A stretch of 64,000 nt of DNA, taken from NCBI GenBank assembly GCA_012729055.1, contig JAAYDW010000098.1, forward strand, positions 1 to 64,000, in the 5' to 3' direction. This DNA comes from Deltaproteobacteria bacterium (GTDB taxonomy: Bacteria > Desulfobacterota > Syntrophia > Syntrophales > Smithellaceae). The notes under the pieces were generated by a model, which searched no databases, was not told the origin of the DNA, and saw nothing but the letters and a program-made list of their open reading frames with translations. Positions 30,902 to 51,521 of the stretch are shown in pieces. Position 1 is the first letter of the stretch. Each line of letters opens with the position of its first letter. A program made the translations under genes and the position numbers.

Positions 30902-31580
30902 TCTGAAATTGAAGCCGGGCTCGGCCGTTCTCGACGCGGGGTGCGGCAGCGGACGGCATCTGCGCGCGCTGGCGAAGCTGCCGGGGCTGACCGTCACAGG
31001 CGTGGACCGCAACGCCAAGGATGTGGCCGAAGCGATCCGGGCGCTGGGAGAAATGCCGGACGCCCGGTCTCGCGATGTTTCCGTGATTTGCGGCGACATC
31101 ACGAAGCTGCCGTATGCCGACGGGTCTTTCGATTGCGTGATCTGTTCGGAAGTCCTCGAACACATTCCGGAGCATGAAAAGGCGCTGGGCGAACTGGTCC
31201 GCGTTTTGAAACCGAAGGGAATTCTGGCGGTGAGCGTTCCCCGGTATTTCTCGGAGCGCATCTGCTGGATGATCTCTTCCGCCTATTCCACGGACGAAGG
31301 GGGCCACATCCGCATCTACAAAAAAAAGCATCTGGAAAGGATGCTGACGAGCCGGGGCCTGCGCTGCTTTAAGGTCAACTACAAACATGCCCTGCATGCG
31401 CCGTACTGGTGGCTGAAATGCCTGGTCGGCATCAAGAATGAAGCAAACGTTTTCGTGCGGCTTTATCACAAATTTCTGGTCTGGGATATGTTTTCGAAGC
31501 CCAGGGCGGTGCGGGTTCTGGAGGAAGCGTTGAATCCGCTCATCGGCAAAAGTATCGTGTTTTATCTTAAAAAAGGTTGA
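30879..31580 (+). CDS. Class I SAM-dependent methyltransferase
   Basis: The 233-residue protein has the SAM-binding motif VLDAGCGSGRHL and then GDITKLPYADGSFDCVICSEVLEHIPEHEKAL, the classic type-11 methyltransferase block. A C-terminal region with tryptophan and aromatic residues (YWWLKCLVGI) probably forms the acceptor site. It overlaps the glycosyltransferase gene by 23 bases and sits 4 bases before the next gene. The acceptor is unknown but is probably a glycolipid or sugar made by this cluster. Confidence 0.82.
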   Translation: MITVDIPDLKLKPGSAVLDAGCGSGRHLRALAKLPGLTVTGVDRNAKDVAEAIRALGEMPDARSRDVSVICGDITKLPYADGSFDCVICSEVLEHIPEHEKALGELVRVLKPKGILAVSVPRYFSERICWMISSAYSTDEGGHIRIYKKKHLERMLTSRGLRCFKVNYKHALHAPYWWLKCLVGIKNEANVFVRLYHKFLVWDMFSKPRAVRVLEEALNPLIGKSIVFYLKKG

Positions 31581-31584
31581 TATC

Positions 31585-32616
31585 ATGGAACTGAATGTAT
31601 CATTTGGCGATGCCGTCAAACCCGTCGACGTGGAAAAGGTCGCCGACTTTATCGCTTCCGTGCAGAAGGACAACGGCGAGATTCCCTGGTCGCAGGGCGG
31701 CAAGACGGATCCCTGGGATCACATCGAAAGCGCCATGGGGCTCGGCGTCGCCGGGTATTACCGGCAGGCCCGGCGCGCCTATGAGTGGCTTGCGGCCGCG
31801 CAGCTTGCCGACGGCAGCTGGTGGTCGGAAACGAAAGACGGCGCCGTCATCAACACCACGAAGGAAAGCAATTTTGCCGCCTATGTCGCCGTGGGGGTTT
31901 ATCACCACTACCTTCTCACGGGGGACCGGGCGTTTCTCAAAGACATGTGGCCGATGGTGTTGCGCGGCATCACCTACGCCGTCGCTCTGCAGGCGCCGCA
32001 GGGTGAAATCTACTGGGCCAGAAATAAAGACGGCGCGGTGGACAAGATGGCGCTGCTCACGGGATGCAGTTCCATTTACATGAGCCTCAAGTGCGCGCTT
32101 GCGATCGCCGAAGCGCTGGGGATTAAAAAGCCGGCCTGGCAGAAAGCAAAGGAGCAGCTGGGCGACGCCCTCTGCAACCGGCCCGATCTGTTCAATATGA
32201 TCAAGTCCCGTTTTTCCATGGACTGGTATTATCCGATTTTGTGCGGAGCGGTCCGCGGTGACGAGGCCAGGAAACGGATCGATCACCTGTGGGACAGGTT
32301 TGTCGTTCCCGACTGGGGGGTGCGCTGCGTGAGCGACCGGCCCTGGGTGACGATGGCCGAAACCTCGGAATTTGTCCTGACGCTTTCCGCCATGGAAGAC
32401 GACACGCGCGCCAGGGCCGTCTTCAGCTGGCTTGGCGACAAGCGCTATGCCGACGGCTCTTACTGGATGGGCGTAACGTTTCCGGACAGCGTCATCTGGC
32501 CGGAAGAAAAGACAAGCTGGACGGCGGCGGCGGTTCTTCTGGCCTGGGATGCCGTCAATCGGGCGACTCCGGCGGCGGATCTCTTTCACCACCGCCGCTG
32601 GGAGGCGCGGCCGTAA
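31585..32616 (+). CDS. Alpha/alpha-toroid protein, terpenoid-cyclase-like fold
   Basis: The product is 343 residues with repeated helix-hairpin elements. Each carries the QxxDGSW-like pattern of prenyltransferase/squalene-cyclase repeats (VQKDNGEIPW, AQLADGSWW, and late DKRYADGSYWMG). The catalytic DXDD of cyclases is not seen. It may be a glycan- or lipid-binding or hydrolysing toroid protein rather than a cyclase. It begins 4 bases after the methyltransferase and is clearly part of the same unit. A terminator-like hairpin follows. Confidence 0.6.
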   Translation: MELNVSFGDAVKPVDVEKVADFIASVQKDNGEIPWSQGGKTDPWDHIESAMGLGVAGYYRQARRAYEWLAAAQLADGSWWSETKDGAVINTTKESNFAAYVAVGVYHHYLLTGDRAFLKDMWPMVLRGITYAVALQAPQGEIYWARNKDGAVDKMALLTGCSSIYMSLKCALAIAEALGIKKPAWQKAKEQLGDALCNRPDLFNMIKSRFSMDWYYPILCGAVRGDEARKRIDHLWDRFVVPDWGVRCVSDRPWVTMAETSEFVLTLSAMEDDTRARAVFSWLGDKRYADGSYWMGVTFPDSVIWPEEKTSWTAAAVLLAWDAVNRATPAADLFHHRRWEARP

Positions 32617-45047: not shown

Positions 45048-45548
45048 ATGAAAGAGGTAAAGGTTATGAGCATCGCCGACGAGGCTGTGCGCAAAATCAA
45101 GAGAGGCGCTTTTTTAACGGTCAAGTCCGAAGCGGGGCAAAACACCATGACCGTCGGCTGGGCCACTTTCGGCTTCATCTGGCAAAAGCCGATCATGATG
45201 GTGGCGGTTCGCCCCACCCGCCATACCTTCGGAATCATCGAAAAGGCCGCGGACTTCACCGTGACCGTTCCGTCGGGCGACATGACCCGGGAAACCAATT
45301 TTTGCGGCACGAAATCCGGCCGCGACGTGAACAAGTTCGAAGCCTGCAGCCTGAAGATTGCAGACGGACAGAAGACCGTTTCGCCGATCATCGCCGTTCC
45401 GGGCGTTCATCTGGAATGCCGGATCGTCTTTAAGGCCGCCATGGATCCCGCTTTCCTGGACAAGGATTACGACCGGGCTCTGTATCCGCAAAAGGATTAC
45501 CACACGCTGTATTTCGGGGAGATTCTGTCCTGCTACGAAACAGAATAA
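45048..45548 (+). CDS. Flavin reductase / flavoredoxin-like protein
   Basis: This 166-residue flavin-binding protein matches the flavin-reductase-like (flavoredoxin) fold. Features are NTMTVGWATFGFIWQKP near the start, VAVRPTRHTFGIIEKAADFTVTVP, and a cysteine in NFCGTKSGRDVNKF, a pattern common in anaerobes. It probably binds FMN and moves electrons. ATG 45048 is chosen after GGAGGAG. The next gene starts 12 bases later, suggesting co-transcription. Confidence 0.8.
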   Translation: MKEVKVMSIADEAVRKIKRGAFLTVKSEAGQNTMTVGWATFGFIWQKPIMMVAVRPTRHTFGIIEKAADFTVTVPSGDMTRETNFCGTKSGRDVNKFEACSLKIADGQKTVSPIIAVPGVHLECRIVFKAAMDPAFLDKDYDRALYPQKDYHTLYFGEILSCYETE

Positions 45549-45560
45549 GGAGGAGGATCG

Positions 45561-46994
45561 ATGCCCCGCCGTCCGAAGCCGGATTTCGACCGGTTTTTTA
45601 AACCGGAAAGTATTGCCATCATCGGTGTTTCACGCGAGCCGGTGACGTTCGGGGGAACCAGTTTTCTCAAGCGCTATCTGGATGCCGGCTATGCCGGAAG
45701 GCTCTATCCGATAAATCCAAAGGCTCCGGAAACGCTGGGGATCAGGGCCTACCCGACGCTCGCTTCTCTGCCGGAAACGCCGGATCTGGTGATGATCGCG
45801 GTGCGCGCCGACGCGGTGCCTGCCGCGCTTGAAGAATGCGCAAGGCGCGGCGCGCGGCATATTCATGTGCTCACCGCCGGATTCGGCGAAACCCGGACCG
45901 AAGAAGGAAGGCAACTCGAAAGAAAATTGGCCGCCATCGCCCGCGAGCATCACCTGCTGGTCATCGGTCCCAATTGCATGGGGCCTTACTGTCCGTCCGT
46001 TCATCTTACGGCCTGGGGCGCGATTCCCGGGCGCGACGGCAGTCTCGGCGTGATTTCCCAAAGCGGCGGCATTACCCAGCGGTTTACGGAATACATTTCG
46101 TCCTTGGGCGTCGGCATCGGCAAGGCCGTCAGCATCGGCAATGCCTGTGTGCTGGACAGTCCGGACTTCCTCGAATACATGGCTGAGGATGAGGAGATCC
46201 GCCTGATTGCCGTCTATCTGGAAAGCATCGGCGACGGACGGCGCTTCTTCGATCTGGCCCGCGCGGCGACGCCCCACAAGCCTGTTATTCTGCTCAAGGG
46301 CGGCCAGTCCGCAAGCGGCGCGGAGACGGTGGAATCCCACACGGGGCGCCTGGCCGGAAATTCGAGGATGTGGGAGGCCTTTTTTGCGCAGACCGGCGTC
46401 GTGCCTGTTGCCGGCATGAATGAATGGGTCGACGCCTGCCTGGCGTTTTCGCTCTTGCCCTGGACCCGGGGCAAAGGCGTCCTGATCGTCGGCGGGGGCG
46501 GCGGCAACAGCGTGATATTTTCCGACACGTGCATTCGCGCCGGACTTTCCGTCCCGGCCCTGTCGGCGGCCGGGATGAAAAGAATCCGCCCCCTGGTTCC
46601 CGTGGCCGGCAGCATCGCCGGAAATCCGCTGGATTACTGGGCGGTCTTTCTTCAGCCGGAACTTCTTTTTGAAGTGCTCGACATGGCTTATGCGGAGCCG
46701 GAGATTTCGCTGGTCATCGTCGACCGCCTGATTCCGCGCATTGCCTTTCACAGTCCGGACATTTCCGACTCCGTTTCCGAGATTGCCGGTTTCATCAAGG
46801 CTCACCGCCTGGCCAAGCCGACCGTGTTTACCGTGGATTACGACGGGGGCGATCCAGATCTGATCGTGAAGGGATCGGCGCTCCGGAGCCGTTTTTGCGA
46901 AGCGGGCATTCCGGCGTTTCCGTCTTTTGAAAGAGCCGTCGGCGCCCTGGCGCGTTTTGCGAAATACTGCGCCGGCAATTCTGAAAAAAAATGA
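45561..46994 (+). CDS. NDP-forming acyl-CoA synthetase, alpha-subunit-like (second copy)
   Basis: A 477-residue protein with the CoA-binding domain (SIAIIGVSREPVTFGG), the GPNCMGPYCPS region, an ISQSGGI segment and the phosphohistidine H260 in ESHTGRLAG. It resembles the copy at 26381 in layout but clearly differs in sequence. It too has no beta (ATP-grasp) domain. It is flanked by a flavin reductase and an enoyl-CoA hydratase, so it may act on an acyl-CoA made by that pair. A scaffold or CoA-transferase-like role is possible without the partner. Confidence 0.78.
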   Translation: MPRRPKPDFDRFFKPESIAIIGVSREPVTFGGTSFLKRYLDAGYAGRLYPINPKAPETLGIRAYPTLASLPETPDLVMIAVRADAVPAALEECARRGARHIHVLTAGFGETRTEEGRQLERKLAAIAREHHLLVIGPNCMGPYCPSVHLTAWGAIPGRDGSLGVISQSGGITQRFTEYISSLGVGIGKAVSIGNACVLDSPDFLEYMAEDEEIRLIAVYLESIGDGRRFFDLARAATPHKPVILLKGGQSASGAETVESHTGRLAGNSRMWEAFFAQTGVVPVAGMNEWVDACLAFSLLPWTRGKGVLIVGGGGGNSVIFSDTCIRAGLSVPALSAAGMKRIRPLVPVAGSIAGNPLDYWAVFLQPELLFEVLDMAYAEPEISLVIVDRLIPRIAFHSPDISDSVSEIAGFIKAHRLAKPTVFTVDYDGGDPDLIVKGSALRSRFCEAGIPAFPSFERAVGALARFAKYCAGNSEKK

Positions 46995-47027
46995 TCAAAA
47001 AAAATTTGTCATAAGAAGGAGAAGAAC

Positions 47028-47816
47028 ATGTTCACGTATCACGACGTTTTGCTGGAAGTGAAAGAAAAGATCGCCACCGTGACCCTCAACCGGCCGAAGG
47101 CGAGAAACGCCTTCAACGCGGGAATTCTGCAGGGCCTGTACGAAGCGGCAAAGCACATTGTGGATGACCCGTCCGTCGGCGTGGTCATCCTGACCGGCGC
47201 GGGCGACCAGTCCTTTTGCGCGGGCATCGACCTGAAGATGGTCGCGGCGGGAGAAGACCTGGCGGGCGACAGAAAGCGCCACGACCGCTTCGGCCACATT
47301 CAGATTTACCGGGACTGCTTCACGGCTTACGAGAAGCTTCCTGTGCCGGTGATAGCGGCCGTAAACGGCTTTTGTTTCGGCGCGGGGCTGGAACTGGCGC
47401 TGGGCTGCGACATCCGTCTCGCGGACGAGTCGGCGCTCTTTTCCATTCCGGAAGTCCAGTTGGGCATCATTCCCGACGGCGGCGGCACGCAGCGTCTTCC
47501 CCGGGTTGTGGGCGTCGGCAAGGCCAAGGAGCTCATTTACACGGGGCGGCGGATCGACGCGCAGGAAGCCCTGCGGATCGGTCTGGTCGAGCATGTTTAT
47601 CCGAAATCCCGCCTGATGGAGGAGGCGCTCACGATGGCGCGGGAAATCGTTCAAAACGGAGAGCCGGTCATCGGCTGCAAGCGGGCGATCAACATTGCGA
47701 TGAACTACTCTTCCGATGTGGGCCTCTTGTTCGAATCGTCCACGCAGCAGGCGTATCTGCAGGCTTTTCAGCAGGGCGCCGGCCGGATGATCAAAAAGGT
47801 AAAAGATGAAAAATAG
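47028..47816 (+). CDS. Enoyl-CoA hydratase/isomerase
   Basis: The 262-residue crotonase-family protein has the oxyanion-hole segment SFCAGIDLKMV, the NGFCFGAGLELALGCDIRLAD block and IPEVQLGIIPDGGGTQRLP. Both catalytic glutamates of classic hydratases have counterparts (AGLELA and IPEVQ). It likely hydrates trans-2-enoyl-CoA in beta-oxidation. It lies 33 bases after the synthetase subunit with an AGAAGGAG site. The substrate range is unknown. Confidence 0.9.
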   Translation: MFTYHDVLLEVKEKIATVTLNRPKARNAFNAGILQGLYEAAKHIVDDPSVGVVILTGAGDQSFCAGIDLKMVAAGEDLAGDRKRHDRFGHIQIYRDCFTAYEKLPVPVIAAVNGFCFGAGLELALGCDIRLADESALFSIPEVQLGIIPDGGGTQRLPRVVGVGKAKELIYTGRRIDAQEALRIGLVEHVYPKSRLMEEALTMAREIVQNGEPVIGCKRAINIAMNYSSDVGLLFESSTQQAYLQAFQQGAGRMIKKVKDEK

Positions 47817-47890: not shown

Positions 47891-49879
47891 TTACGCCGTC
47901 CGGCCGATAGCCAGGCGCGCTTTTTCAATGCAGGCGATCAACTCCTGCATGTCCTTTTCTTCCACGAAAGGCGACATGACGAAAGACTTGAGGGCCAGCA
48001 CAGGTTCGCCGCAGGCCGCCGTCCGGTAATGGCTGGTGAGCGACAGGGCGAATCCCTCTTCCTGCTCCATCTGGCGGTGCAACTCGTCAAACAATTTCTG
48101 ATTGTAGGCATTGTTCCGCGCGAGGCTTTCGGCCGCCTGCGGATCGGTCAGTTCGTCGGAGAAAACCGCCTTGGCGTCCACGCCGTCCGGGTAAGCCCGA
48201 AAAAGCGTCACCGGTCCGTAGTTGTAGTCGTTCACCTGGCACATGGCCGGATGCTCGTCGAGACGCAGCCGCAGCACTTCGGCCATGGTGACCAGATGGC
48301 CCAGGAGCGCCCGGTAGCCTTCCTTGCCGAACAGTTTCAGATTCGCCAGGGCCGCCAGGACCGATCCGCCGGACCGCGACGTCTCCAGCGTGAAGACGCC
48401 GGGATGATAATGGCCGAACTGGAACAGGTAAGGCATCAGGCCGGTATCCCGGCTGATGCGGCCGAGATCGTCCTTGTTTTTGCACAAAACCATGCTCGAC
48501 ACGTAGGGGCCGAACCCCGTCTTGTGAAAATCAAGGCCCACGGAATCGGCGCGCCCCAGCGCGCTCATGTTGACCTGCGTATCCCACAGGCAGCGCAGGG
48601 CGCGGGCGTTGAATCCCAGCGGATTCGCGTCGAAGTCGTAATCATTGAAGACCGACCAGGCCCAGCCGATGACGGCGTCGGCATGAATGTGGGGCAGGTA
48701 GGGCAGGCGGTATTCCGCGGCCAGACGGTCGCGCAGGCCGGTGATGTACTGAAGGTTGTCGATGCCGAAGGCGTCGGTGGTGCCCATGGTGGCAATGATT
48801 GCGGCGATTTTTTCGCCGCGCTCCAGAATGCGCCGCAGGCCGTCTTCGAGTGCGGTAGGATCCATGGAATTGTCGGCGTCGGTCGGAATGGTGACGAGGT
48901 TGTCCGTTCCAATGCCCAGCCAGCCCAGCACATTGAGCTTGGCGTAGTGGGCGGCGGACGAGGCCACCAGCTTCAGCGGCTCGGAAACGCCGCGGCTGAA
49001 GGCGCCGGGACAGGCCTTTTCGACGCCGAGCTTGACGCCGTAAAGGATTGTGCCCGTGCCGCCGAAGGTGCAGAAGCCCGCGGCCTGGTCCGGATCGTAG
49101 CCGACCAGCGACGCGCACATGGCCGCCGTTTCGATTTCCGCCAGTCCGACGCGGTAGCTGTATTCATCCCAGATGATGTTCGGATTGTAGATGGCGCCGA
49201 AAAGATTGCCGATCACAGCCGGAATCGTCGTCGGGGGAACGACGTTTTCCTGCGTGTGCGGATGACTCCAGATGAAACCGCCCTGCATGTATTCGGCGAG
49301 GGCGGCGACGGTTTCGGCAACGCCCGACATACGTTCCGGAACCTGCTTTCTACGGGCCTGGCTGTAGTCGATCGGCTCACGCAGCCCCAGGTAGGGCCGT
49401 CCGGTTTTGAGACGGTCGATCTGCCCCAGTCCGTCGGCGACCGAAGCGATGAACGCTGCATCGGCGTCCGGCGAAGGAAAGGCAGCGCGCAGCAGAGGCA
49501 GAAGTTCATCGCAGGTTCTGCCCACGGCGGCCGGATGGCCGGCCGTCGGACGAACCCCGGTGGAAAAGTTGTCCAGCAGGCCGGAAAGTTCCAGCACCTG
49601 ACGGACGGCCGGGCCGGCCTGCGCCAGCCGCAACGGCAACAGCGTGTGCGACGGGCCGGACAATGAGCGGGACGCGGCCGTTTTCATCAGAAAGAGAAGC
49701 GAGCGGATGCCGGCGCTCGAGATGTACTGCAGACGGGAAAAATCGAGGACAACCTGGCGCCGGCTTTCCCGCACGAGGGCGCCGACGGCTTCTTCAAACG
49801 CCTTGGCCGAGGCGACGTCCAGCCGGCCGGCGCATTTTACCGTAATGCGGGTGGCTCGTGTTTCTACTGAAATGTCCAT
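47891..49879 (-). CDS. STAS domain fused to group II PLP-dependent decarboxylase
   Basis: The 662-residue protein joins two domains that I do not know as a usual pair. Residues 1-105 are a STAS domain of anti-sigma-factor-antagonist type (AGRLDVASAKAFEEAVGAL, then VLDFSRLQYISSAGIRSLL), with serines 54-55 at the normal phosphorylation site. Residues about 115-662 are a group II decarboxylase with HADAVIGWAW and the PLP lysine K453 in DFHKTGFG. Substrates of that family include glutamate, aspartate, tyrosine and diaminobutyrate. The single frame has its only good ribosome site (AAAGGAA) before the STAS part. It sits 52 bases after nadB. Confidence 0.85.
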   Translation of the reverse strand: MDISVETRATRITVKCAGRLDVASAKAFEEAVGALVRESRRQVVLDFSRLQYISSAGIRSLLFLMKTAASRSLSGPSHTLLPLRLAQAGPAVRQVLELSGLLDNFSTGVRPTAGHPAAVGRTCDELLPLLRAAFPSPDADAAFIASVADGLGQIDRLKTGRPYLGLREPIDYSQARRKQVPERMSGVAETVAALAEYMQGGFIWSHPHTQENVVPPTTIPAVIGNLFGAIYNPNIIWDEYSYRVGLAEIETAAMCASLVGYDPDQAAGFCTFGGTGTILYGVKLGVEKACPGAFSRGVSEPLKLVASSAAHYAKLNVLGWLGIGTDNLVTIPTDADNSMDPTALEDGLRRILERGEKIAAIIATMGTTDAFGIDNLQYITGLRDRLAAEYRLPYLPHIHADAVIGWAWSVFNDYDFDANPLGFNARALRCLWDTQVNMSALGRADSVGLDFHKTGFGPYVSSMVLCKNKDDLGRISRDTGLMPYLFQFGHYHPGVFTLETSRSGGSVLAALANLKLFGKEGYRALLGHLVTMAEVLRLRLDEHPAMCQVNDYNYGPVTLFRAYPDGVDAKAVFSDELTDPQAAESLARNNAYNQKLFDELHRQMEQEEGFALSLTSHYRTAACGEPVLALKSFVMSPFVEEKDMQELIACIEKARLAIGRTA

Positions 49880-49931
49880 GGCAGATTCCTTTCCGCGTGG
49901 AGTGTGGATTCAGAAAACAAGGAAACGGGAG

Positions 49932-51521
49932 TCAGTTCCTGATTAGAATAGTGTCTTTTAGAAAGGCGTCATCGATTTGGGGGTAATCCATGGTGTAGTG
50001 CAGGCCGCGGCTTTCCTTGCGCGCGCGAGCGCTCTGCACAATGAGTTTGGCGACGGTCGTGATGTTGCGCAGTTCGATCAGATCCTTGGTGACCCTGTAG
50101 TTCCAGTAGTATTCGTGGATTTCCTTCTGGATCATGGCGATGCGGCGCTCGGCGCGCTCCAGGCGCTTGTCCGAGCGGACGATGCCCACGTAGTTCCACA
50201 TGCAACGGCGAATTTCCTCCCAGTTGTTGGTGACCACGATGGTGTCGTCGCTTTCCGAGCTGTTCACCGGGTCCCACGGCCGGATGGGAACCGTGCTCAT
50301 CTCCGTTTGCCGAAACGATTTGGCGATTTTCGTGAAAACCCGGTGGGAAAAGACCAGGGCTTCCAGAAGCGAGTTGCTCGCCAGACGGTTTGCGCCGTGA
50401 AGCCCCGTACAGGAAACTTCGCCGCACGCAAACAGGTTGTCGATCGAGGTCTTGCCGTCGGCGTCCACCGCGACGCCGCCGCAGATGTAGTGCGCCGCCG
50501 GCGCGATGGGAATGGGCTGCTGGGCCATGTCGATGCCGTATTCCAGGCATTTGCCGTAGATGTTGGGAAAGCGGTCCATCAGAAAATCCCGGCTGCGGTG
50601 CGTGATGTCCAGAAGAACGTATTCGTCGCCGGAGCGCTTGATTTCCGTATCGATGGCCTTGGCCACGATATCGCGGGGCGCGAGGCTCTTCATCGGATGG
50701 TACTTTTCCATGAAGGTTTCGCCGTTCTTTAAGCGCAAAACGCCGCCTTCGCCCCGGACGGCTTCGCTGATCAGAAAGGCCTTGGCTTCCGGATGAAAAA
50801 GGCAGGTGGGGTGAAACTGGATGAATTCCATGTTGGAGATTTTCGCCCCCGCCCGGTAAGCCATGGCGATGCCGTCGCCCGTGGCGATGTCCGGATTGGT
50901 GGTGATGAGATAAACCTTGCCCGCGCCGCCGGTCGACAGGATCGTGTATTTGGCGCGATACGTGTGGATTTCGCCCCGGTTGATGTCGAGCACGTAGGCG
51001 CCCAGACAGTTGATGGTCCGGCCCTGGGCGTCTTTCTGCAGGATCAGATCGATGCCGATGTGGTTTTCGTAGATGGCGACGTTTTTCAGGCCGGCGACTT
51101 TATCGTGAAGCGCCCGCTCGATTTCACGGCCGGTGAGGTCCTTGGCATGCAGAACGCGGCGTTTATGGTGACCGCCTTCCTGTCCGAGATCGTACGCGTG
51201 AGGGGACTCTTCCGATTTGGTGAAATTGACGCCCCATTCCACAAGCTCCTGAATGCGCGGAGGCGCTTCGCGGACGACGAAGTTCACGACGTCCTTGTGG
51301 CAGAGGCCGGCGCCGCAGTCCAGCGTATCGGCGATATGCTCTTCAAAACTGTCGGTTTTGTCCGTCACCGCGGCAATGCCGCCCTGGGCGTAGTTGGTGT
51401 TGGATTCCGATTTTTCCTTTTTCGTGACGATGGCCACCGATCCGAGACGGGCGACCTTGATGGCCAGGCTTAAACCTGCTATTCCGCTGCCGATGATGAG
51501 AAAGTCCGTTTTGATTTCCAT
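49932..51521 (-). CDS. nadB: L-aspartate oxidase
   Basis: A 529-residue flavoprotein that oxidises aspartate to iminoaspartate, the first step of NAD synthesis. FAD binding is by IIGSGIAGLSLAIK. The family loop NTNYAQGGIAAVTD, the HHKRRVLHAKDLTGREIERAL block and the late GEVSCTGLHGANRLASNSLLEALVF all fit. It can use fumarate as acceptor in anaerobes. It is transcribed from a shared region with tsaD. nadA and nadC are not adjacent. The STAS-decarboxylase gene follows. Confidence 0.93.
   Translation of the reverse strand: MEIKTDFLIIGSGIAGLSLAIKVARLGSVAIVTKKEKSESNTNYAQGGIAAVTDKTDSFEEHIADTLDCGAGLCHKDVVNFVVREAPPRIQELVEWGVNFTKSEESPHAYDLGQEGGHHKRRVLHAKDLTGREIERALHDKVAGLKNVAIYENHIGIDLILQKDAQGRTINCLGAYVLDINRGEIHTYRAKYTILSTGGAGKVYLITTNPDIATGDGIAMAYRAGAKISNMEFIQFHPTCLFHPEAKAFLISEAVRGEGGVLRLKNGETFMEKYHPMKSLAPRDIVAKAIDTEIKRSGDEYVLLDITHRSRDFLMDRFPNIYGKCLEYGIDMAQQPIPIAPAAHYICGGVAVDADGKTSIDNLFACGEVSCTGLHGANRLASNSLLEALVFSHRVFTKIAKSFRQTEMSTVPIRPWDPVNSSESDDTIVVTNNWEEIRRCMWNYVGIVRSDKRLERAERRIAMIQKEIHEYYWNYRVTKDLIELRNITTVAKLIVQSARARKESRGLHYTMDYPQIDDAFLKDTILIRN

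Follow-up and report, generated by a model that had tools for sequence, protein, structure and literature searches.

Positions 47891–49879 of the stretch of DNA analysed here (the window: 64,000 nucleotides, positions 1 to 64,000 of contig JAAYDW010000098.1 from a bacterium of the Smithellaceae) hold a gene in which an N-terminal STAS domain is joined to a complete group II decarboxylase dependent on pyridoxal 5'-phosphate (PLP). The fusion is real, inherited and rare, and it pairs a switch and an enzyme class that are each known, in a way that we did not find described in print. We propose that it is an RsbV-type phospho-switch attached in cis to an amino-acid decarboxylase, a reading for which we judge the chances to be about even; that S55 is phosphorylated, by which kinase, with what effect on enzyme output, and on which substrate the enzyme acts are points that we infer.

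One open frame joins the two domains

The gene (minus strand, as are all of its features given below) encodes 662 residues, starts at an ATG and contains no internal stop; a sequence resembling a ribosome-binding site (RBS), GGAAAGGA (49887–49894), lies 7 nt 5' of the ATG. An earlier note on this DNA had read a STAS domain and a complete group II PLP decarboxylase in one frame, and the profile searches confirmed it, since both domains score above their Pfam cut-offs: STAS (PF01740) at residues 5–108 with an E value of 7.7e-12 and 45.4 bits (cut-off 22.6), and Pyridoxal_deC (PF00282) at residues 203–553 with an E value of 4.6e-10 and 39.2 bits (cut-off 27). The STAS domain is also matched by PF13466 (37.1 bits, cut-off 29.2). 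The linker between the domains (residues 111–140; 49460–49549) is in part of low model confidence, with a predicted local distance difference test score (pLDDT) below 50 at residues 111–119 and 137–140; the sole in-frame start codon within it is a GTG at residue 119, where an RBS-like site is absent.

The possibility that an assembly error or frameshift fused two genes, which the note had itself raised, is virtually out of the question. The source assemblies are drafts, mostly metagenome-assembled genomes (MAGs), and no support for such an artefact was found in them; it is refuted because the full-length fusion recurs in separate assemblies. Seven of 32 related loci (L002–L008) align from residue 1 to residues 655–661, each in a single open frame and with 53–84% identity over the protein, and a further full-length counterpart, L062, is described below. 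The fusions also form one clade, purifying selection acts within the genus on both domains and the linker, and the GC content at third codon positions is 0.67–0.82 along the gene.

The STAS domain resembles RsbV and keeps an invariant loop

The structure look-up of the whole protein spanned residues 139–662, and the STAS part (residues 1–111) was folded and searched separately. Its AlphaFold2 model (mean pLDDT 85.4) has the canonical STAS pattern, and its top match in the PDB is Bacillus subtilis RsbV from the RsbV/RsbW complex (6m36_B; Z 15.5, root-mean-square deviation (rmsd) 1.6 over 98 residues), tied with the RsbV homologue TM1442 (1vc1; Z 15.0). Lower matches are RsfB (Z 13.6), SpoIIAA (13.0), MlaB (11.6) and RsbS (6jhk; 10.3), a ranking that is not absolute because the STAS domain of the transporter SLC26A11 reaches 13.3; in such match lists, a family that is missing is not thereby excluded. 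Profile matches, predicted fold and loop sequence thus support the assignment of the N-terminal domain (residues 1–110; 49550–49879) to the RsbV/SpoIIAA anti-sigma-antagonist type. A link to a stressosome-like partner, as the note had considered, was not borne out: the modelled domain appears nearer to RsbV than to RsbS, and its N-terminal position is unlike that in RsbR, where the STAS domain is not N-terminal.

The note had also placed S54 and S55 (49715–49720) at the phosphorylation site, and the candidate serine there is intact. The residues S54–R59 (SSAGIR) are invariant in all nine fusion proteins that we collected, and nowhere else in the STAS domain do six consecutive residues stay unchanged; in the model, the two serines stand at the start of the helix formed by residues 55–72. 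We take S54 to correspond to Asp57 of SpoIIAA and S55 to Ser58, which makes S55, as the second serine of SSAG, the likely phospho-acceptor.

The decarboxylase has a full set of catalytic residues

The decarboxylase domain comprises residues 141–662 (47894–49459). The best PDB match of its model is 4rj0_D (Z 40.1, rmsd 2.8 over 441 residues, model range 139–656); the matches are general group II decarboxylases, so that the structure does not tell the substrate. K453 (48521–48523), the PLP-binding lysine, falls in a profile alignment on K392 of Enterococcus faecalis tyrosine decarboxylase, as represented by the wild type and by the K392A entry 7cwz, which has alanine there. H311 (48947–48949) is the candidate PLP-stacking histidine and D401 of the HADAVIGWAW motif (48677–48679) the candidate partner of the PLP pyridine nitrogen, roles that we presume from group II decarboxylases; both HADAVIGWAW and K453 are present as first read. 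The three residues are invariant in the 28-row alignment A1, where they are shared by 20 stand-alone enzymes, and they are intact in eight of the nine fusions, the window included. The protein is probably an amino-acid decarboxylase, with a complete catalytic residue set.

The fusions are rare and form one clade

A genome scan with short peptide patterns, which reaches close relatives only, returned 32 related loci, namely the seven fusions L002–L008 and 25 stand-alone decarboxylases (L009–L033). The Riflebacteria MAG with L008 contains a second copy, L062, which brings the count to nine fusion proteins in eight genomes. Five of these genomes (G000, G004, G009, G013, G015) are in the window's genus, out of 20 genomes of that genus. 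In wider sets, 5 of 99 relatives carried a fusion, as did 5 of the 155 class genomes (overlapping sets), 2 of 395 genomes from a sample of the phylum (both belong to the genus) and 2 of 394 genomes of an overlapping sample around G156, one of these being the same contig as that of G013. From a contig repeated between samples we infer that the genome of L006 belongs to the window's phylum. The phylum of the Riflebacteria genome yielded 1 of 39, with its two copies, and that of the Cloacimonadota MAG 1 of 124, plus one C-terminal fragment. The latter (L106; G1085:C84:8451-8702) has 84 C-terminal residues, is 64% identical to the Cloacimonadota fusion and contains an internal TAG.

The 25 stand-alone relatives are PLP decarboxylases of about 550 residues from Planctomycetota, Thiocystis, Methylococcus, Desulfobacterota and some archaea; they start at residues 117–126 of the fusion, with 41–54% identity. 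Unlike in the fusion, no STAS domain was detected in any of the 25: a search of the open frames of these loci with a STAS profile to which the fusions had contributed revealed none (best E value 0.27), and in the three loci with long upstream open frames Pfam identified the decarboxylase only. One stand-alone homologue, in a Halobacteria MAG (L030:3669-5296), is split over two frames, by frameshift, assembly error or decay.

In trees built on the decarboxylase residues, all nine fusions group in a single clade, with ultrafast bootstrap and Shimodaira–Hasegawa-like approximate likelihood ratio test (SH-aLRT) values of 99/98 for 37 rows and an SH-aLRT of 99 in a quick tree of 48 rows, which fits a single fusion event. 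The 37 rows are the 48 minus 11 (long or distant rows, and L015, which is equal to L067), and the split L030 was omitted from both trees; L008 and L062 join weakly (68/57 in the 37-row tree). Since the stand-alone relatives have the full-length enzyme, the STAS domain was probably joined to an enzyme that was already complete.

Between the window gene and the four other fusions of its genus, the ratio of nonsynonymous to synonymous substitution rates (dN/dS) is 0.12–0.17 for the STAS domain, 0.15–0.31 for the linker and 0.076–0.081 for the decarboxylase, and both domains are thus under purifying selection within the genus; at larger distances the ratio is unusable, dS being mostly above 1 or undefined. 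Compared with the four more distant fusions, the window protein is 36–39% identical in the STAS domain and 61–64% in the enzyme (46% for L062).

A proposed phospho-switch in cis and its possible partners

In the mechanism that we propose, the STAS domain would act as phospho-switch and docking handle of the decarboxylase. With S55 unphosphorylated, it could dock on an RsbW-like anti-sigma kinase whose gene lies elsewhere in the genome; that kinase would phosphorylate S55 and then release the domain, and a SpoIIE-type phosphatase would reset the serine. Binding or phosphorylation of the STAS domain would, in turn, affect how active the attached enzyme is, how it oligomerises or where it is located. 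The invariance of SSAGIR despite a STAS identity of 36–39% between the window and the more distant fusions supports this reading.

The idea of a decarboxylase switched by a kinase, which had been put forward together with that of an adjacent kinase gene, stood in part: the STAS domain is of the antagonist type, its serine is intact, and RsbW-like kinases and SpoIIE phosphatases occur in the genomes, but no kinase gene was found beside the fusion in the loci examined. Genes of the HATPase_c_2, SpoIIE and other STAS families are present in eight of eight fusion genomes (SpoIIE in G009 as a single partial match of 31.3 bits), and each of the eight has a STAS match no more than 75 nt from a HATPase_c_2 match; G000 has an RsbV-like/RsbW-like pair at C37:31261-32002, its RsbW-like kinase occupying 31261-31641. 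On the window contig, by contrast, the fusion's own STAS domain is the only match among the HATPase_c_2, SpoIIE and STAS families, and no RsbW-like or second STAS open reading frame (ORF) was called in 33 neighbourhoods. As to rsbT- and rsbS-like neighbours, the window contig has no HATPase_c_2 or other STAS match, RsbT not having been searched by name. The sole HATPase_c_2 match on a fusion contig (G009:C8:40898-41152) was rejected, since it scores under the cut-off and lies some 21 kb from the fusion.

We also compared the loop with that of other STAS proteins in the fusion genomes. Among the STAS ORFs that were fetched with an RsbW-like ORF (matched by the G000 kinase), eight of nine have SSAG[LI]R and the ninth SSMGLR; the other STAS rows have it in two of ten cases (L091 and L098), for a total of 10 of 19. 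STAS ORFs near other HATPase_c_2 matches (G015:C418, G156:C373) have different loop letters, and the G156:C186 stretch and stretch L087 yielded no STAS row. The motif is absent from all 13 control STAS domains (stretches L111–L122 of the same genomes, mostly in larger proteins; SulP and MlaE are labels that we presume for some of them from frame size and recall). DSSGLG, found in SpoIIAA, is the other classical form. SSAG[LI]R therefore fits the RsbV class but, as L091 and L098 share it and some controls carry DSSGLG, it marks that class only loosely and is no proof of a kinase.

Several observations weigh against the proposed switch. The TIGR00377 (ant_ant_sig) model reaches 46.3 bits, below its cut-off of 53.45. 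The loop after helix 2 is longer in the fusion STAS than in RsbV proteins and the STAS domain evolves faster than the decarboxylase, and it may therefore have lost kinase binding. No kinase, phosphatase or second STAS gene was found beside the fusion in the loci examined, and the presence of the partner families in eight of eight genomes is weak evidence, showing no more than that partners are available, because these families are widespread and the counts cover the fusion genomes only. L091 and L098 have SSAG[LI]R without an RsbW-like ORF in the fetched stretch of about 0.5 kb, and DSSGLG occurs in two controls (L121 and one domain of L122). Finally, the gene is shown by only five of the 20 genomes of the genus, some of which are incomplete.

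Part of this evidence would suit a STAS domain that is a non-phosphorylated scaffold, serving oligomerisation, solubility or recruitment, with its serines kept for the fold only. STAS domains of other proteins do serve as protein-interaction modules, no partner gene is linked to the fusion, and the STAS domain is less conserved than the enzyme (36–39% versus 46–64% identity when the window protein is compared with the four more distant fusions). We regard this explanation as unlikely, since the only six-residue invariant run of the domain coincides with the phospho-acceptor loop, the motif occurs in none of the 13 same-genome controls (though some show the DSSG form), and the stand-alone enzymes do without a STAS domain.

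A catalytically altered copy

The second STAS–decarboxylase copy of the Riflebacteria MAG (L062:91-2097; G157:C36) is likely a pseudo-enzyme. Of the 87 positions at which 28 family members do not vary, 26 are changed in L062, with K453R, H311S, Y312A and T367G/T368A/D369G among the changes; in a leave-one-out comparison, the other family members depart at 0–4 positions, except L029 at 17. With so many invariant positions changed, K453 and H311 included, L062 can hardly be catalytic. Its SSAGIR motif is nevertheless intact and its 669-codon frame open. Compared with L008, dN/dS is 0.92 for the STAS domain and 0.65 for the decarboxylase, and the L062 branch is long. This points to a STAS part able to persist after catalysis is lost, or else to a copy in decay.

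Such a copy would fit a signal that runs in reverse, in which the decarboxylase would sense its amino acid, the PLP state or pH and thereby control the capture of an RsbW-like anti-sigma kinase by the STAS domain; the enzyme, or an inactive copy of it, would then do the sensing for a stress or sigma-factor pathway. The RsbV type of the domain is consistent with this, kinase capture being what that class does, as is the persistence of SSAGIR and of an open frame in a protein that is hardly catalytic. We nevertheless consider a reverse signal unlikely: only one such copy is known and, given the ratios and branch length above, it may be decaying, and catalysis seems to matter, because H311, D401 and K453 are retained in all the fusions but this one. 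A more elaborate arrangement, in our view quite improbable, would have the enzyme wired into a partner switch within one polypeptide, with the decarboxylase as metabolite sensor and, in at least one lineage, a dead copy beside an active one that titrates the anti-sigma kinase as a pseudo-enzyme input subunit.

Relation to known switches and enzymes

Sigma factors are the main known targets of partner switches. The fusion resembles the single-domain RsbV/SpoIIAA antagonists in its STAS fold and phospho-acceptor loop; unlike these, it carries a metabolic enzyme, has a longer loop after helix 2 and has no adjoining kinase gene. If it is switched as we propose, partner-switch machinery would exert direct phospho-control over amino-acid metabolism.

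A few partner switches act in trans on cyclic di-GMP enzymes: HsbA–HsbD and BgrV–BgrR (STAS) and SiaC–SiaD (STAS-like DUF1987) control diguanylate cyclases (PMC8457831, PMC6482189). There, as proposed for the fusion, an enzyme is controlled by a STAS or STAS-like protein that is itself regulated by phosphorylation, and the polarities are opposite, HsbD being bound by phosphorylated HsbA and SiaD by unphosphorylated SiaC (PMC6482189, PMC8457831). These are, however, separate proteins acting in trans on an enzyme that makes cyclic di-GMP, whereas the fusion is one chain with a PLP decarboxylase.

A published description of a STAS–PLP decarboxylase fusion was not found in our searches of the open-licence PMC literature. 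The fusion offers a one-protein test of how STAS phosphorylation affects an enzyme, for which the nearest stand-alone enzymes are natural switch-free controls.

The substrate

PanP, 2,4-diaminobutyrate (DABA) decarboxylase, tyrosine decarboxylase and GAD/CSAD have the fold and PLP lysine of the fusion, but the NCBIfam scores remain far below the equivalog cut-offs for PanP (TIGR03799, the nearest named model; 76.9 bits against 606.1), DABA decarboxylase (74.3 against 900) and tyrosine decarboxylase (47.1 against 905).

More distant relatives were found on plasmids, with matches in 237 records, of which 15 were listed and seven inspected, five of these being annotated at the locus and the other two stretches carrying no annotation. 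Among the matches listed, a GadC-like or amino-acid permease gene lies directly downstream of the decarboxylase in four of the five annotated loci (Plesiomonas, Polymorphobacter, Escherichia albertii and Sphingomonas, the last with decarboxylase and permease each annotated in two pieces); the Salinivibrio locus, also among the matches listed, has no permease downstream. These plasmid decarboxylases are 31–38% identical to the window protein; for the four with a permease the identity is 32–38% over the matched part, which starts after the STAS part, and the two of them included in the 48-row tree fall just outside the fusion and stand-alone clades. The fusion lacks such a permease at its side: there is no gadC match among the called neighbour ORFs of 33 regions, nor in the whole window. 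Because some distant relatives adjoin GadC-like permeases, we make the modest guess that the substrate is an acidic amino acid. The plasmid loci with a PLP decarboxylase followed by a permease gene (L081, L082, L107 and L108) resemble amino-acid decarboxylase/antiporter modules.

Neighbouring genes and the aspartate question

The gene upstream of the fusion, separated from it by 52 nt, is nadB, encoding L-aspartate oxidase (49932–51521, minus strand; NCBIfam 754.6 bits), which we do not count as part of the system. Aspartate had been suggested as the substrate from this adjacency, a suggestion that lost its ground on wider comparison: a nadB homologue was called in one of the seven other fusion neighbourhoods surveyed (L006, 2.7 kb off and on the opposite strand; L062 was outside the survey), and the gene preceding the fusion varies among the fusion loci. 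In addition, all five same-genus fusion genomes, as well as G155 and G156, have a match to PanD, while a search of G157, the Riflebacteria genome with two fusions, gave none.

We therefore find it very doubtful that the enzyme is a PanP-like replacement of PanD, converting aspartate to beta-alanine, and that the nadB link reflects aspartate use. PanP is the nearest named model and the Riflebacteria genome, with no PanD match, would fit, yet the score lies far under the cut-off of 606, nadB is not kept as a neighbour, and PanD is present in the genomes just named. There is a precedent in Desulfovibrio vulgaris, which is without panD and in which the PLP-dependent aspartate decarboxylase DVU0867 performs the PanD step (PMC10102598).

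Shared ORF clusters among fusion loci are confined to the near-identical L002, L003 and L007, with the exception of a nadB-like cluster (the window and L006, in another arrangement). No common neighbour function emerged from ten ORFs of four fusion loci and ten more (two of L004, the rest from stand-alone loci). Note that the longest frame was taken greedily in calling neighbour ORFs, a rule that in L014 and L015 preferred a frame on the wrong strand to that of the decarboxylase and may miss short or overlapping genes, and that some fusion contigs, such as the 6.3 kb of L005, are too short to show distant neighbours. The fusion gene of L004 is adjoined, on the opposite strand, by a gene for a 968-residue WD40-repeat protein (L004:2863-5769). 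Consecutive genes on the window's plus strand (45048–47816), the strand opposite that of the fusion, are flavin-reductase-like, CoA-binding/succinyl-CoA-ligase-like and enoyl-CoA-hydratase-like.

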